Shown here: one piece after another, positions 4,629 to 12,762 of the stretch | Layout: each line of letters opens with the position of its first letter | How positions within the stretch are numbered: position 1 is the stretch's first letter | NCBI RefSeq assembly: GCF_003111685.1 | Contig: NZ_CP022189.1 | Location: 2,124,001-2,188,000 of the forward strand | Direction of reading: 5' to 3' | Source: Alloyangia pacifica | Lineage (GTDB): Bacteria; Pseudomonadota; Alphaproteobacteria; Rhodobacterales; Rhodobacteraceae | Length of the DNA stretch: 64,000 nt | Program-made: the position numbers and the translations under genes | The notes under the pieces: model-generated | The model's input: the letters and a program-made list of their open reading frames with translations, nothing else | Told to the model about the DNA's origin: nothing | Databases searched by the model: none

Positions 4629-4703
<75 letters not shown>

Positions 4704-5100
4704 CTTAAACCCCTGAAATCGCTAGATTTCGCGAGACCCTCTCCCAGAGTAGCCTCTCGCGCTCCGGGCCTTGCCGAGATGCCTCCGCGCTGCCGCGCTG
4801 GCTCCTGCATGCGCTTGGTCCGGTAAATCAGGGCTCTATCGCAGCACTTCGCCAGGGCTCTTGGCGCGCCACCGCGCAGCGCGCACCGAGCTGCCGCAAG
4901 GGCATCCCGAAGCCCCCGTATCCTGCGCATTTTCCGACCCCCGGAAGCGGTCCTTGCGTCACCCCGGCGCGTCACCCGGCGTCACCCCGACTCCGGCCCG
5001 GAAACGAGTCATGCCCCGACTGCAAGGCACCGCGATTCTCCGCCGCGAAAACGGCCCCCCGCGAATCGATACACACGAGTCGCAGGAGGCGAACGTCACG
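4704..5100. other. Intergenic region without a supportable gene
   Basis: About 400 nt between the tRNA and the CYTH gene. Open frames on both strands here are Arg/Ala/Pro-rich with no family resemblance or convincing ribosome-binding site. Short GTCACCC-type direct repeats occur near 4958-4990. I see no clear promoter, RNA or attachment site. Confidence 0.5.
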
Positions 5101-5583
5101 TCACCCGGGTCGGCCCGGCACCCCGTTGTCGGCGAGCGCGCGATTCCGGTAGCGGCGATCCTCGGTCACATCCGCGCCGAACCAGTCCGGCGGAGTGAAA
5201 GCCAGTGCCGCCTCCACCGTATCGAATTCCACCTCGACCATCACCAGCGGCGCCAGCGCGCCGGCAAAGACGTCGAGCTCGAAGCCGGTGCCATCCGCCA
5301 GCGCGCCCACGTAGCGGGTCTTCTCGACCACGCGCCCGCCGGTCGTCGGCCAGAGTTCCTCGAACTGGGCGCGCTCGATCTCGATCTCGCGCTCCATCCG
5401 CGCCAGCCCGCCCTCGGATTTCAGCGTCAGGAAATAGGCGCCGCCCTTCTCGCGCAGGCGCAGCTCGATGGAATCGCCCTCGAGCGTGACATACCCCTGT
5501 CGCACCGGCTTGGATTTCAGCCCCTCGAGCACCGGCAGACGGGCGACGAGGAACTTGCGCTCGATCTCCACGCCGCCGCTCAT
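5101..5583 (-). CDS. CYTH-domain (triphosphate tunnel) protein
   Basis: A 160-residue single-domain CYTH protein. The N-terminal signature EIERK (E6, E8, K10) is the defining ExExK motif of the triphosphate-tunnel metalloenzymes (class IV adenylate cyclase, thiamine triphosphatase, inorganic tri/polyphosphatase). Further charged strand residues of the tunnel (ELRLREK, LTLKSEGG, EIEIE, EVEFD) are intact, so it is likely catalytic. It is the last gene of the RHH-CHAD-ParA-CYTH operon, and its ATG overlaps the ParA stop by 4 nt. The context points to inorganic tri- or polyphosphate as substrate; cyclase activity cannot be excluded. Confidence 0.88.
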   Translation of the reverse strand: MSGGVEIERKFLVARLPVLEGLKSKPVRQGYVTLEGDSIELRLREKGGAYFLTLKSEGGLARMEREIEIERAQFEELWPTTGGRVVEKTRYVGALADGTGFELDVFAGALAPLVMVEVEFDTVEAALAFTPPDWFGADVTEDRRYRNRALADNGVPGRPG

Positions 5584-6332
5584 TTGCCGAACACCCGGGC
5601 AACAAGCTCGTCATGCAGCGTAGCGTAGGCCGCGCTTGCCGCGCTCGACGGGGCCGAGACCATGACCGGCGCGCGATGCACCCCCATGCGCTCCACGTCC
5701 GAGGTGAAAGGGATCGACGCCGCGAGCAGCCGCTTGCCGTGCTCCCGGCGCATCTCGTCCATGGTCTCGCCATGCAACGACTTCACCCCCTGCGCCATGG
5801 AAAAGAAGCCGTGCAACTTCTTCACCGGCAGGTCGTGCTCGCGGAAGAACGCCTTGAGCTGCTCGAAGGTGCGCTGCGAGAGCGTCGTGGGGATCACCGG
5901 CACGACGACGGCATCCGAGGCGCGGAAGACGTTCTCCGACAGGGTCGAGATGTTCGGCGGGCAATCCAGAAGGATCACGTCGTAGTCGCCCTTCACCGCC
6001 TTCAGCGCCTTCTTGAGCCGAGAGCGCGAGTTGCGCATCCTCGCCAGAAATACGTCGAAGTCGCGGAAGGTCATATTCGCGGGCAAGATGTCGAGATTGT
6101 CGAAATCGCTACCGCGGATGGCCTTGGTGAAGCGCGCGACGTCGTCGAAGAAACGCGTCTCGGTCAGCTTCTTCGATGGCTTCACCCGGAAGTAGAACCC
6201 CGAGGCGCCCTGCGGATCGAGATCGCAGAGCAGCACCCGCCGCCCGCCCTGCGCCAGCGCATAGGCGAGATTGACGGAGGTCGCGGTTTTTCCCACGCCG
6301 CCCTTGTTGGAATAGCAGGCGATGATCTTCAT
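5580..6332 (-). CDS. ParA/MinD-type ATPase of a CHAD-CYTH operon
   Basis: A 250-residue Walker-type ATPase of the ParA/Soj family. The deviant Walker A KGGVGKT begins at residue 10, Walker A' DLDPQG follows, and Walker B is seen in VILLDCPPN. There is no N-terminal HTH extension, so it resembles chromosomal orphan ParAs that position cargo rather than type Ia plasmid proteins. Its C-terminus has basic residues that could bind DNA. No parB or centromere-like array is adjacent; instead it lies between a CHAD protein and a CYTH protein, overlapping both by 4 nt. I infer a role in locating polyphosphate or a polyphosphate-bound complex on the nucleoid. Confidence 0.9.
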   Translation of the reverse strand: MKIIACYSNKGGVGKTATSVNLAYALAQGGRRVLLCDLDPQGASGFYFRVKPSKKLTETRFFDDVARFTKAIRGSDFDNLDILPANMTFRDFDVFLARMRNSRSRLKKALKAVKGDYDVILLDCPPNISTLSENVFRASDAVVVPVIPTTLSQRTFEQLKAFFREHDLPVKKLHGFFSMAQGVKSLHGETMDEMRREHGKRLLAASIPFTSDVERMGVHRAPVMVSAPSSAASAAYATLHDELVARVFGK

Positions 6333-7849
6333 GGTTTTCCCCCGTGGAACAGGTCGCGGAACGTCTGGCGGGTCTCGGCGCTGTTGAAGGCGGCAAAGCT
6401 GCCGACAACCCGTGCGCGCTCGGCCAGCTGGCGGTCGTGCAGCACAAGGACCAGCGCGCCGACGCTCTGGGCAATCTGCAGGTTGCCCGGTGTCGCCCCC
6501 TCGAGACGCCCGAGAAAGGCCTGCAGGCTCTCCTGCTGCACCGAGTAATCGTTGAAGAGGCCGAGGTTGTCCTGCAGCTTCTTGAGCGGCTTGATGATCT
6601 GCTTGAAGGGCTTTGCCGGGAAGAGCGGCGCGAAGAACTCCATGAGGTAGCGCAGCTTCTTGCAGTGGATGCGCAGCTCGTGGACCTCGTGGTCGGGCGT
6701 GCCCTCGTCGATGCCCTCGGCAATGGTGCAGATCCTTCGGTAGCGTTTCCAGATCAGCTTGCAGGCGAAGTCGTAAGCGGACAGATCGGCTTTTCCCCCC
6801 TTTGCCAGCTTCTTGCGCTTGTCAAAGAGCTTGATGAGCGCCTTGATCTCCTTGCGGTAGGCAGTGCTGCGCAGGTGTGCCGCAAGCGACTGGTGTTCCC
6901 CCGTCCGCTCCTGCGCGAAAAGCGCGAACATCCGGTCGAGCCCGCCGTGCAGGCTGGCGGGCACCATGGCGTAGAAGCCGTCCCGCTCCAGCAGGTAGAC
7001 ATCAAGATCCCGCAGCCGCCCGGTGGGCGACATGAGGTCAGAAAAGCGCGCCTTCAGTTCGGCGGTCAGCTCCGCGTCGTAGACATCTCTGAAAAGGCTC
7101 AGCACCGAGCGGACCTTGCGCAGTGCGATGCGGTAGTCGTGCAGGAACTCGGTGTCGTCGTCGGCGATCACCCCGGCCTCGTTGGCCCGCGCCACTTGCA
7201 GATAGGCGGCGATGATGTCGCTCGCAGCATCGAAGGCCCCGGTCTCGCGATCCAGTGAAACGACCGGCTTGGGGGTGTAGTCGCTCAGACCCGGAAAGAG
7301 CTTTGCATAGAGCCCGGCCTCGCCGAGCGCCGTGCCGCCCGCATCCTCGACCATAACGCGCAGCCGCTGCAGCGCCTTGTCGTAGCCGCGCAGCCCCTGC
7401 AGCTGCAGCACCAATACCTTCCCGCCCCCGGTCGCCGCCAGCTCGATAAGCTGCGCCCGCGCCTGCGTCTTGCCCTCGTCATCCAGCAGCGACAACGTTC
7501 CCCGGCGCAACGTGCCCGCGCCCACCGGGAGCAGGCAGCGCAGCGAAGAGAGGTCCGAGAGCGCCCCCTTGACCGGCCCCTCGGGAAGGTCGCTGACGAA
7601 GCGGGCCCCGGCGGCACCGCGCTGCACGAGAGGCGCGCCCGCAGGCCGCAGCAGCTCGAACTGCTCGTCCGCCTCGACCAGCAGCCTGCCGGAGTTCCGG
7701 AGCCTCTGATCGAAGCTGTCTCGGACCTGGAAGGCGCTGCTGCCCTCCTGCCAGACCAACCGCGCGGCAAGGCCGCCGACGGGCGCGCCCATCAGCCGCT
7801 CCAGCGCTGCTTCGGGCAGGAGATAGGGTGCAAGGGTCTCCGGGCTCAT
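6329..7849 (-). CDS. CHAD-domain protein with N-terminal CYTH-like region
   Basis: A 506-residue soluble protein. Residues about 215-500 form a CHAD (conserved histidine alpha-helical) domain, with the two diagnostic His-containing helices (H237xxR240xxxR244 and H390xxR393 followed by K397, K398 and R400) and many exposed Lys/Arg. CHAD domains are established inorganic-polyphosphate-binding modules. Residues 1-200 resemble a CYTH barrel in layout but lack the ExExK motif, so that part is probably non-catalytic. The start overlaps the RHH gene by 4 nt and the stop overlaps parA by 4 nt. It is likely the polyphosphate-recognising element of the operon. Confidence 0.9.
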   Translation of the reverse strand: MSPETLAPYLLPEAALERLMGAPVGGLAARLVWQEGSSAFQVRDSFDQRLRNSGRLLVEADEQFELLRPAGAPLVQRGAAGARFVSDLPEGPVKGALSDLSSLRCLLPVGAGTLRRGTLSLLDDEGKTQARAQLIELAATGGGKVLVLQLQGLRGYDKALQRLRVMVEDAGGTALGEAGLYAKLFPGLSDYTPKPVVSLDRETGAFDAASDIIAAYLQVARANEAGVIADDDTEFLHDYRIALRKVRSVLSLFRDVYDAELTAELKARFSDLMSPTGRLRDLDVYLLERDGFYAMVPASLHGGLDRMFALFAQERTGEHQSLAAHLRSTAYRKEIKALIKLFDKRKKLAKGGKADLSAYDFACKLIWKRYRRICTIAEGIDEGTPDHEVHELRIHCKKLRYLMEFFAPLFPAKPFKQIIKPLKKLQDNLGLFNDYSVQQESLQAFLGRLEGATPGNLQIAQSVGALVLVLHDRQLAERARVVGSFAAFNSAETRQTFRDLFHGGKP

Positions 7850-8037
7850 CGTACCTTCTTTCTGCTCTTGCGCAGGTAGTCTTCGATCAGTGTCTCGACG
7901 ATCTTCTGCACGCTTGTATCTTCCTCGATCGCGCGCAGTTTGAGCGCCTTCAGGGTCTTGCCGCTGAGCCGAAGGGAGGTGTTCTTCTTCTCATCTTCCT
8001 GTGCATCCTGGGCCTTGGGCTGTTTGACCTTCGCCAT
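7846..8037 (-). CDS. Small ribbon-helix-helix-like protein, first gene of the CHAD-ParA operon
   Basis: A 63-residue protein. A charged, Lys/Glu-rich tail (residues 1-18) precedes a typical RHH pattern: a short strand (TSLRL), then two helices (GKTLKALKLRAIEED and VQKIVETLIEDYLRKS) with a basic end. The start at 8037 is preceded by AGGAAAGG at 8 nt spacing; an in-frame ATG further upstream lacks this. RHH proteins bind direct-repeat operators as dimers, and two 8-bp repeats lie 20-40 bp upstream of this start. Small RHH proteins with flexible tails (the ParG type) are known ParA partners, so it may be both autorepressor and adaptor. The family call is by pattern only. Confidence 0.7.
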   Translation of the reverse strand: MAKVKQPKAQDAQEDEKKNTSLRLSGKTLKALKLRAIEEDTSVQKIVETLIEDYLRKSRKKVR

Positions 8038-8058: not shown

Positions 8059-8074
8059 TGACGTCATGATGTCA
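8059..8074. promoter_or_regulatory. Tandem TGAYGTCA repeats, predicted operator of the RHH operon
   Basis: Two adjacent 8-bp units, TGACGTCA and TGATGTCA, lie 22-37 bp upstream of the RHH start codon. With the flanking bases, 8058-8075 is also an almost perfect inverted repeat. Contiguous short repeats are the usual target of RHH dimers. Operator function is inferred. Confidence 0.5.
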
Positions 8075-8132
8075 CTCTTGCGACCGGCCCGCAACGCGGT
8101 TTTCCCTGAAATCAACACGCTCGGCCTACTCA

Positions 8133-8152
8133 TCTGTTCGTGAATGAACAGA
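8133..8152. promoter_or_regulatory. Inverted repeat in the divergent promoter region
   Basis: TCTGTTC and GAACAGA flank a 6-nt spacer between the RHH operon and the secreted-protein gene at 8222. The symmetry suggests a dimeric regulator site. It does not match the alphaproteobacterial LexA direct repeat (GTTC-N7-GTTC). The bound factor is unknown. Confidence 0.3.
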
Positions 8153-8221
8153 GTGCTGCGGATGACAGCGCCGCCGCGAGCGCTTAGGTACCCAGCATGG
8201 CTGACGAAGGAGATGCAGACC

Positions 8222-8503
8222 ATGCGGAACCTTGTTGTACTCGGGCTGGTGCTTGCCGCTGCCACGCCCGTCTCCGCGCAAAGTGAGAAGGCGGCACGCT
8301 GCGAGACCTCGGCAAAGATGGTCATGGAAGCGGTGCAGGCGCGTAAGGACGGAATTTCCCTCAAGCGGACCGAGCGCGAGCTGCGCCGGGCGCTCGACCG
8401 CGACACCGGCGCTTCGCTCGCGCAATGGATCTACGGGCTGCCGGAGAAGGATCTGACCCTCGACGTGGGCCGGACGTGGGAGCAGCAGTGCCTCACGCAA
8501 TGA
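8222..8503 (+). CDS. Small secreted protein of unknown function
   Basis: A 93-residue protein with a clear signal peptide (MRNLVVLGLVLAAATPVSA, then QSEKAARC). The mature part has two cysteines and a helical, Arg/Glu-rich centre. The start at 8222 has AAGGAG at 9 nt; an ATG at 8213 would directly abut that site. It is divergent from the CHAD-ParA operon and upstream of dnaG. No family was recognised; a periplasmic location is predicted. Confidence 0.65.
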   Translation: MRNLVVLGLVLAAATPVSAQSEKAARCETSAKMVMEAVQARKDGISLKRTERELRRALDRDTGASLAQWIYGLPEKDLTLDVGRTWEQQCLTQ

Positions 8504-8631
8504 GCCCTCAGAGCTGACAGGCACCGACGTCGCGCTTCCGCGCGGCGCCGGAGTCGGCTATCCGCAACGAATGATGAAATCCCCGGTCGAGTCGCATGGA
8601 CTCGGCTCCGTTGTGCATTGATACTCCGAGC

Positions 8632-10626
8632 ATGAGTCTTCCACCCGGTTTCCTCGACGAGTTGCGCACGCGCACGAGCCTGTCTCAGGTCGTGGGCCGC
8701 AAGGTCATGTGGGACAGCCGGAAATCGAACCAGGCCAAGGGGGACATGTGGGCGCCCTGCCCGTTCCACCAAGAGAAGTCCGCGTCCTTCCACGTCGATG
8801 ACCGCAAGGGCTTCTACTACTGTTTCGGCTGCCACGCGAAGGGCGACGCCATCTCCTTCATCCGCGAGAGCGAGAACGTCGACTTCATGGAAGCCGTCGA
8901 GATCCTCGCCCGCGAGGCCGGGATGCCGATGCCGGCGCGCGATCCGCAGGCCGCGCAGAAGGCCGACCGCCGCAGCCAGCTCGCCGAGGTGATGGAACAG
9001 GCGCTGCGCTTTTACCGGATGCAGCTGCGCACCGGCGCCGCCGCCGAGGCGCGTGGCTATCTCGAGCGGCGCGGCCTCAAGCAGGAGGTGCAGGACCGGT
9101 TCGAGCTCGGCTTCGCGCCGAACGGCTGGCAGGGGCTCTGGGATCACCTGCGCGGACAGGACGTGGCCGAGGATCTGATCCTCGGCGCCGGGCTGGCCAA
9201 GCCCTCGGACAAGGGCCGCGCGCCCTATGACGTCTTCCGCAACCGCATCATGTTCCCGATCCGCGACGGTCGCGGCCGCGCGATCGCCTTTGGCGGGCGT
9301 GCGATGGATCCGCGCGATAATGCGAAATACCTCAACTCGCCCGAGACCGATCTCTTCGACAAGGGCCGCAACCTCTATAACCACGCGCCCGCGCGCGAGG
9401 CGGCGGGCAAGGGCCAGCCGCTGATCGTCGCCGAGGGCTACATGGATGTGATCGCCCTCAGCGAAGCCGGGTTCGAAGCCTCGGTCGCGCCGCTCGGCAC
9501 GGCGGTGACCGAGCATCAGCTCGCCCTCCTGTGGCGCATCGCCGACGAGCCGGTGATCGCCCTCGACGGCGACAAGGCCGGGCTGCGCGCCGCCTACCGG
9601 GTGATCGACACGGCCCTGCCCTTGCTGGTGCCGGGCAAAGGGCTGCGGTTCGCCCTCATGCCCGAGGGGCAGGACCCCGATGATCTGCTCCGCGCGAAGG
9701 GGCCGCAGGCGGTGAAGGCCGTGCTCGACCAGGCGCTGCCCATGGTGCAGCTTCTCTGGCGGCGCGAGACCGAGGGCAAGGTCTTCGACAGCCCCGAACG
9801 CAAGGCCGCCCTCGACGCGACGCTGCGCGCCGCGATCAAGCGGATCCAGCACCCCGACCTGCGCCGCCACTACGGCGACGAGATCAAGGACCTGCGTTGG
9901 CAGCTCTTCCGCGGCAAGCGCGGCGGCCAGTCCGGCGGGTTCTCGGGAAGCGCGAGCCAATACACTCCTTTCCGCAACGGCAAGCGCACGCAGAAATGGG
10001 GCCAGGCCGTGCCTATCGCGCCGAGCGCCTCGGCCAAGGCCTCGCTGCTGGTGGCCGCCGGCGACGCCGCCGAGACCCGCCTGCGCGAGGATGTCATCCT
10101 CGCCGTGCTGCTGCGCTACCCCGCGCTGATGGCCGAATTCGAGAGCCCGCTCGAGACGCTGCCCTGCCAGGACCCCTCGCACGCCGCCCTGCGCAGCCTT
10201 TTGCTGGCGGGGGTGACCGACGACCCCGAGACACTCCAGGACGAGGCGATGCAGAGAATCGGACCCAAGGCCCTTGATTCCCTGCTCGGGGCACGCCATG
10301 TGGCTGTCGTACCCTGCCTGCGACATTTCGGTGACAGCGAGCTCGCCCGCCTGACGGTGGCCGAGGAGTTCGCAAAAATCGCCGCTCAGGCTGGACTCGT
10401 GGCCGAACTCGCCGAGGCTCTGGAGGACATGGAAAGCCTGGCGGACGAAGCCCTCACCTGGCGCCTGGGACAGGCAGCGCAGGCACGCAACCAGGCCGTG
10501 ATGAACCGGTCCGAGGATGACGTGGAATTCGACGTGGGCGCGAATGGCGCCCGCATGGACAAGGAAGAACGCAGCGCCTTTGACGCGTTGCTGCAGCAGA
10601 TTCGCTTTTCCAAAGGTCAGAACTAG
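8632..10626 (+). CDS. dnaG: DNA primase
   Basis: A 664-residue primase that synthesises RNA primers at the replication fork. The N-terminal zinc-binding CHC2 domain is visible (CPFHQEKSASFHV ... YYCFGCHAKGD), followed by the Toprim catalytic core with EGYMDVIAL and ALDGDKAG acidic motifs, and a C-terminal helicase-binding region that is divergent and Ala/Glu-rich, as usual in this group. I chose the ATG at 8632 (MSLPPGFLDELRTR) rather than 8596 because the family begins with this segment. It lies upstream of rpoD, the common dnaG-rpoD order. Confidence 0.97.
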   Translation: MSLPPGFLDELRTRTSLSQVVGRKVMWDSRKSNQAKGDMWAPCPFHQEKSASFHVDDRKGFYYCFGCHAKGDAISFIRESENVDFMEAVEILAREAGMPMPARDPQAAQKADRRSQLAEVMEQALRFYRMQLRTGAAAEARGYLERRGLKQEVQDRFELGFAPNGWQGLWDHLRGQDVAEDLILGAGLAKPSDKGRAPYDVFRNRIMFPIRDGRGRAIAFGGRAMDPRDNAKYLNSPETDLFDKGRNLYNHAPAREAAGKGQPLIVAEGYMDVIALSEAGFEASVAPLGTAVTEHQLALLWRIADEPVIALDGDKAGLRAAYRVIDTALPLLVPGKGLRFALMPEGQDPDDLLRAKGPQAVKAVLDQALPMVQLLWRRETEGKVFDSPERKAALDATLRAAIKRIQHPDLRRHYGDEIKDLRWQLFRGKRGGQSGGFSGSASQYTPFRNGKRTQKWGQAVPIAPSASAKASLLVAAGDAAETRLREDVILAVLLRYPALMAEFESPLETLPCQDPSHAALRSLLLAGVTDDPETLQDEAMQRIGPKALDSLLGARHVAVVPCLRHFGDSELARLTVAEEFAKIAAQAGLVAELAEALEDMESLADEALTWRLGQAAQARNQAVMNRSEDDVEFDVGANGARMDKEERSAFDALLQQIRFSKGQN

Positions 10627-10767
10627 ATGGCCATTTAGGGAAACTGGAGGAAAAACCGGTAGACGGGTGGCCGAATCAAACGATTCCCCCCATGATTCGC
10701 AAAATCGAATCACTTCACTTGCGCGAGTGCCGGCCAGAACCGGCCCCTCCCTTTGACGGAGCACTTC

Positions 10768-12762
<1,995 letters not shown>

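Follow-up and report, generated by a model that had tools for sequence, protein, structure and literature searches.

A four-gene operon encoding a CHAD protein and a ParA-family ATPase

The window analysed here is a 64-kb stretch of DNA from Alloyangia pacifica, and its subject is a compact minus-strand operon in which a CHAD protein is encoded next to a ParA-family ATPase. Read in the direction of transcription, the four genes encode a small ribbon-helix-helix (RHH) protein of 63 amino acids (7846..8037), a CYTH-CHAD protein of 506 amino acids (6329..7849), a ParA-family ATPase of 250 amino acids carrying the deviant Walker A motif KGGVGKT (5580..6332) and a CYTH protein of 160 amino acids (5101..5583). 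Each gene overlaps the next by exactly 4 nt (7846-7849, 6329-6332 and 5580-5583), in agreement with an initial annotation of this DNA, and Pfam assigns CHAD with an E-value of 1.5e-61, AAA_31 (the ParA type) with 2.5e-41 and CYTH with 4.1e-7. That annotation also saw no parB gene beside the operon, and indeed the genome's six ParB_N matches are all located elsewhere; the best one adjoins a separate ParA at C1:137 kb.

The CHAD-ParA gene pair is conserved across three classes

Scanning the collection of species genomes with a ParA profile yielded 436 relatives, from which the best 80 loci, with 80 distinct ParA sequences, were fetched (fetched loci are numbered with L and genomes with G); counts out of 80 therefore hold for the nearest relatives only. 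In all 80, ParA is immediately preceded by a CHAD gene on the same strand, with a junction of -7 to +9 nt throughout and of -4 nt in 40 loci, and this adjacency together with the tight junctions places the arrangement beyond chance. The loci span the alpha-, beta- and gammaproteobacteria, so that the linkage on whose conservation the original proposal had been staked beforehand holds across three classes; Alloyangia and Salipiger supply the closest named ParA relatives, and Paracoccus denitrificans (L067) is among the carriers. The flanking genes are less constant: CYTH is directly downstream of ParA in 60/80 loci (counting as present L038, where it is split over two frames, and L054, a partial match, and as absent L061 and L066, where contig ends may be the cause), and an RHH gene is directly upstream of CHAD-ParA in 42/80, 36 of them above 60 bits.

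Searches that began from CHAD gave a similar picture. A search with the whole protein matched 24 of 61 genomes, its own included, and in all 13 strong loci from other genomes (L003-L015) ParA directly follows CHAD. In a sample of the order, 41 of 292 genomes had a CHAD match, which exceeded 500 bits in 31; 30 of these 31 strong loci were seen (G316 was left out), and ParA is present in 28, absent from one (L116) and truncated in another (L132). Ten of the 13 loci and 15 of the 30 are identical to members of the set of 80. L116 and L132 are natural ParA losses in which CHAD and CYTH are retained.

As background, 45 other CHAD loci were searched for ParA by profile and, in frames of at least 150 residues, by Walker A pattern; 40 of them came from a sample of the phylum, and the remaining 5 from among the 10 weak loci of the order. 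Unlike the window, 44 of the 45 showed no ParA directly beside CHAD, with L206 and L226 near contig ends. Weak ParA-profile matches (19-27 bits) occur in five of the 45 loci, L229 among them. A small ParA is encoded 3.3 kb from CHAD at L219, and P-loop ATPases of other kinds are found at a distance of 2-4 kb at L204, L205 and L233. At L229 a small ParA gene (6436-7095, minus strand; 215 residues from the likely start) ends in a stop codon 16 nt ahead of an intact CYTH-CHAD gene (4935-6416) on the same strand. The L229 ParA is 37% identical to the window ParA over 54 residues only and thus belongs to a different subfamily; a search with it found relatives in 33 of 398 genomes. The linkage is unusually strong, but in its tight form it is confined to a single CHAD subtype and a single ParA subtype, apart from at least one separate pairing. 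At L229 a frame that looks SixA-like by eye precedes the ParA-CHAD pair, and at L230 (G554) a PPK1 gene is divergent from the CYTH-CHAD gene and no ParA was found.

The association extends to whole genomes. In the phylum sample a close ParA relative is present in 66 of 398 genomes and CHAD in 192; CHAD occurs in 57 of the 66 ParA-positive genomes versus 135 of the 332 others, kinship being ignored in this comparison. Among 35 more distant ParA relatives (L169-L203), several of which lie on stretches that stop at contig edges, CHAD adjoins ParA in five (L169, L170, L171, L180 and L184). For the ParAs without CHAD, a rough inspection of the closest frames at 12 loci revealed no shared partner gene. 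Such ParAs (L172-L203 except L180 and L184) sit mostly in CHAD-bearing genomes. A maximum-likelihood tree was built for 61 ParA rows, made up of the 35 distant relatives and 26 of the 80 loci; on it the CHAD label needs three changes, as against about 21 with shuffled labels. Rows from Nitrosomonas, Alcaligenaceae, Neiella and gammaproteobacterial metagenome-assembled genomes are interspersed among alphaproteobacterial ones, and this mixing of classes suggests that the cassette has spread horizontally. One record labelled Enemella evansiae (L033), an actinobacterium, carries the cassette with a ParA 81% identical to that of the window; its CHAD DNA is the same as that of L009, a genome of the window's own family, so the label may be wrong.

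Features of the CHAD and ParA proteins

The CYTH-CHAD protein is modelled with a mean pLDDT of 94.4 and comprises an N-terminal triphosphate-tunnel (CYTH-like) domain (residues 2-188; 7286..7846) followed by the CHAD domain (residues 191-505; 6335..7279), both on the minus strand. The CHAD half has the CHAD fold and keeps 9 of the 10 tested positions that contact polyphosphate; the fold and these basic residues are those expected of the polyphosphate-binding CHAD family. The N-terminal half retains the CYTH fold in degenerate form, and the catalytic ExExK motif is absent from the first 60 residues in 52 of 52 CHAD proteins. The protein thus has the fold and contact residues of the CHAD proteins or phosins CtCHAD, YgiF and PptA, and shares an N-terminal CYTH fold with YgiF, but differs in a CYTH half that lacks ExExK.

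The ParA protein has the ParA/MinD ATPase core: it matches ParA/Soj chains in the PDB, and NKGGVGKT is kept in 79/80 ParAs. By residue count it is basic (+11). It is also the most conserved product of the operon, with a mean pairwise identity of 70.6% compared with 62.8% for RHH, 59.0% for CYTH and 47.5% for CHAD (37 RHH, 59 CYTH, 79 CHAD and 80 ParA sequences, short pieces and stop-containing sequences having been dropped). Pairwise distances correlate at 0.83 for CHAD-ParA, 0.78 for CHAD-CYTH and 0.76 for ParA-CYTH; those of the RHH protein with the others (0.24 to 0.35) are noisy, the protein being short.

The CYTH gene belongs to the NeuTTM family

A profile of the CYTH protein matches the structures of NE1496 (NeuTTM; 2fbl and 3typ) with an E-value of 2.5e-65. 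In the cassette of Nitrosomonas europaea (L041), the CYTH protein matches NE1496 along the full 148 amino acids compared, and on this sequence evidence the cassette gene in that organism is NE1496 itself. The motif ExERK is present in 55 of the 58 CYTH genes scored, so that both motifs first described as intact, this one and the Walker motif of ParA, are generally kept. Tyr31 and Lys55, paired by hand with the Tyr28/Lys52 dyad described for NeuTTM (PMC3440374), are invariant in 7/7 aligned members.

NeuTTM is described as an inorganic tripolyphosphatase family (PMC3440374), and hydrolysis of tripolyphosphate by the N. europaea enzyme has been reported in print. Since the window CYTH protein belongs to the family of this specific enzyme, tripolyphosphate is its likely substrate, and it probably removes tripolyphosphate rather than trimming long chains. 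Of the suggestion that CYTH turns over polyphosphate chain ends, the polyphosphate-related enzyme survives, whereas the chain ends give way to tripolyphosphate as the likelier target. In the text covered, the authors of PMC3440374 call the significance of the NeuTTM activity unclear, and the portions of the NeuTTM literature covered draw no link between operon partners and NeuTTM function. The cassette gives NeuTTM a context.

The RHH protein and a conserved operator-like site

Assignment of the RHH protein rests on its predicted fold, because the Pfam match to RHH_1 (E 0.0085) falls below the cut-off. The model has helices at residues 26-38 and 43-62 behind a Lys-rich N-terminus of low model confidence (residues 5-11), and the structural matches listed are mostly RHH proteins (CopG, ParG, Arc and MatP) with probabilities up to 0.98, although none of those listed reaches a Foldseek E-value of 0.001, all being above 0.3. 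The two modelled helices and these matches support a strand-helix-helix fold.

Upstream of the RHH gene lies a probable operator, TGACATCATGACGTCA (8059..8074, minus strand), a 16-bp site of two tandem 8-bp boxes (TGACRTCA) that is invariant in eight aligned sequences from five distinct loci and occurs as an exact match nowhere else in its own genome. It overlaps the -10 element of a promoter-like sequence read by eye, TTGCGG-17 nt-CATCAT (8066..8094, minus strand); a sigma-70 scan did not report this sequence, and similar TTG boxes are found in most of the 15 relatives inspected. The 141 bases scanned upstream contain one two-box site and no direct repeats. The two boxes resemble the tandem operators of RHH repressors such as MetJ.

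The site accompanies the RHH gene. Across 79 of the 80 loci (L046 was dropped), with 250 nt searched in RHH-bearing loci and 500 nt in the others, it is found with at most three mismatches in 35 of the 36 clear-RHH loci versus 8 of the 43 others, and the mean number of mismatches is 1.4 against 6.4 in background stretches for the former and 5.1 against 6.1 for the latter. Of the eight other loci with the site, two (L041 and L051) show weak RHH matches and three (L058, L083 and L102) show RHH traces. No RHH gene was found upstream in 38/80 loci (including L046, which a contig end makes impossible to judge), and elsewhere in the 13 of 13 RHH-lacking genomes searched there were only weak matches of 13-18 bits in open reading frames of at least 410 residues, or none. 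At L056 (4111-4419) and L079 (4131-4451), where the usual RHH is missing, another small basic protein that appears RHH-like by eye is encoded upstream of CHAD.

The initial annotation had given the RHH protein two roles, as a link between CHAD and ParA and as a repressor of the operon. The first is hard to reconcile with its absence from so many loci; since its presence elsewhere tracks the promoter-overlapping site, the protein is best read as an optional autorepressor, and the second role is the likelier one. By analogy with ParG, the RHH partner of ParF in type Ib partition, it may additionally be an activator of ParA.

A possible role in polyphosphate granule positioning

The widespread pairing of CHAD with ParA, often accompanied by a tripolyphosphatase and a likely self-repressor, suggests an ATP-driven placement of polyphosphate granules. 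We lean, with modest confidence, towards the reading that the operon is a partition-like system for positioning these granules, in which the CHAD protein is the adaptor and ParA the motor. The CHAD half would coat the granules and so mark them as ParA cargo, and we infer that the ATP-bound ParA dimer would sit on the nucleoid and bind the CHAD protein, perhaps via the catalytically dead CYTH-like domain. Hydrolysis of ATP and rebinding by ParA would then move the granules, spacing them and sharing them between daughter cells, as with McdA and carboxysomes, while the CYTH enzyme would clear the tripolyphosphate that arises as granules are consumed. The RHH protein would repress the operon from the two-box operator on its promoter, being dispensable in many lineages. 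A broader version seems to us evenly poised between right and wrong: that a mobile cassette performs this positioning or partition with CYTH-CHAD as the direct ParA adaptor, that the ParA-CHAD pairing arose more than once, and that, across the Pseudomonadota, solitary ParAs of related type may do likewise for CHAD proteins encoded elsewhere.

The closest parallel is McdA/McdB, which positions carboxysomes and, like other ParA/MinD cargo systems, likewise pairs an ATPase of the ParA type with a marker protein for a body inside the cell. In all 80 fetched loci the ATPase is encoded beside its putative adaptor, for which a cargo-marking role would follow from the CHAD biochemistry described in the covered part of PMC6537752. 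The partner, however, is a CYTH-CHAD protein and not McdB (besides ParA, the operon encodes RHH, CHAD and CYTH proteins; the searches made did not include an McdB model), and the window ParA is matched better by partition ParAs (8ray, E 1.4e-27) than by McdA structures (6noo, E 9.3e-8).

Several observations weigh against granule positioning by a dedicated CHAD-ParA pair. CHAD persists where ParA is absent (L116) or truncated (L132), 30 of the 35 distant ParA relatives fetched have no CHAD beside them, and among 30 fetched loci with the L229-type ParA, CHAD lies within 1.5 kb in a single one, L229 itself. The one background case in 45 slightly weakens the specificity of the linkage, yet it adds a separate pairing and leaves our estimate unchanged. 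Polyphosphate kinases are also distributed unexpectedly: PPK1 is present in 11 of the 31 strong-CHAD genomes of the order sample versus 240 of the 261 others (kinship ignored), and, with one query for each kinase, flanks of up to 6 kb contain PPK1 at none of the 80 loci and PPK2 at one. Fourteen of the 20 strong-CHAD genomes without PPK1 are from one genus. PPK2 occurs in 31/31, in one to four copies, and polyphosphate in the genomes without PPK1 would rest on PPK2. The A. pacifica genome has one PPK1 match and two for PPK2.

Of the other explanations, the one that fares best makes ParA an ATP-dependent switch or chaperone, which would load, release or activate the CHAD and CYTH proteins on polyphosphate according to the ATP level and leave granules unmoved. 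Other ParA-like ATPases serve as regulators, and both the tight coupling of gene order with the CHAD protein and tripolyphosphatase and the slow evolution of ParA relative to CHAD would suit such a role; the retention of a ParA/Soj-type sequence and its basic character, as expected of nucleoid binding, make it unlikely. Alternatively, CHAD and ParA could form a static tether between granule and nucleoid, with ATP setting only the DNA affinity of ParA. The model here would be AlgP, a DNA-binding granule protein of Pseudomonas (PMC9239181, PMC13052382), described for P. aeruginosa as spacing polyphosphate granules via the nucleoid (PMC9239181). This is the role that we propose for the window system, but AlgP is histone H1-like and has no ATPase; a tether needs none, and the near-universal ATPase motif of the cassette ParAs renders this quite improbable. 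A slimmer prospect still is that CHAD binds or marks a different cargo, such as another granule, polyphosphate binding being secondary: the near absence of PPK genes around the operon and the 20 of 31 genomes lacking PPK1 would fit, against which stand the strongly conserved polyphosphate-contact residues, the tripolyphosphatase-family gene in three-quarters of the operons and the constant presence of PPK2. Finally, a type Ib-like DNA partition pair of RHH and ParA, with the 16-bp site as centromere beside polyphosphate genes, is very hard to credit, for although the RHH fold resembles ParG (1p94, rank 7, probability 0.94, E 0.5) and a small RHH protein with a flexible basic tail likewise occurs beside a ParA and downstream of a conserved site, type Ib pairs RHH with ParA always, whereas here ParA persists in the 38 loci where no RHH was found, CHAD lies between the two genes, the genome has one exact site, the surroundings are chromosomal and a separate ParA stands beside ParB.

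Relationship to published work

In Acidithiobacillus, a folD-ppk-parA-CHAD neighbourhood with parA beside CYTH-CHAD is described as conserved (PMC10892726, PMC6416229). It resembles the window in this adjacency and differs by the adjoining ppk1, a likeness that is drawn from the published description and not from sequence. PMC6416229 takes the CYTH-CHAD protein for a class IV adenylate cyclase, and the covered parts of the two papers do not propose a positioning role for the pair. These clusters may be another separate ParA-CHAD case. The adjacency of ParA and CHAD is thus already in print for one genus; new here are its breadth, the NeuTTM identity of the CYTH gene and the operator-like site. 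A full-text literature search, with subscription papers mostly outside its scope, found ParA-driven polyphosphate positioning via CHAD proposed neither in the titles and first lines of abstracts that it listed nor in the text covered.

Several bacteria place their polyphosphate granules in an ordered manner, and a 2025 review, in the part covered, lists only AlgP for their spacing, calls the granule-placement proteins of Caulobacter unidentified and marks ATP dependence as unknown (PMC13052382). The cassette offers a ParA, an adaptor with conserved polyphosphate-contact residues, a protein from a known tripolyphosphatase family and a probable repressor site. As carriers such as Paracoccus denitrificans are culturable, the question of granule placement is open to test by one deletion.

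Neighbouring genes

The operon is flanked on one side by a tRNA-Thr gene (4629-4703) and on the other by open reading frames (8596-12762) that read, by eye, as primase and sigma factor. Between these and the RHH gene lies a divergent open reading frame of 119 amino acids (8144-8503, plus strand) without a Pfam match, whose start resembles a signal peptide by eye and which is conserved next to the operon in L003-L008, the closest relatives.

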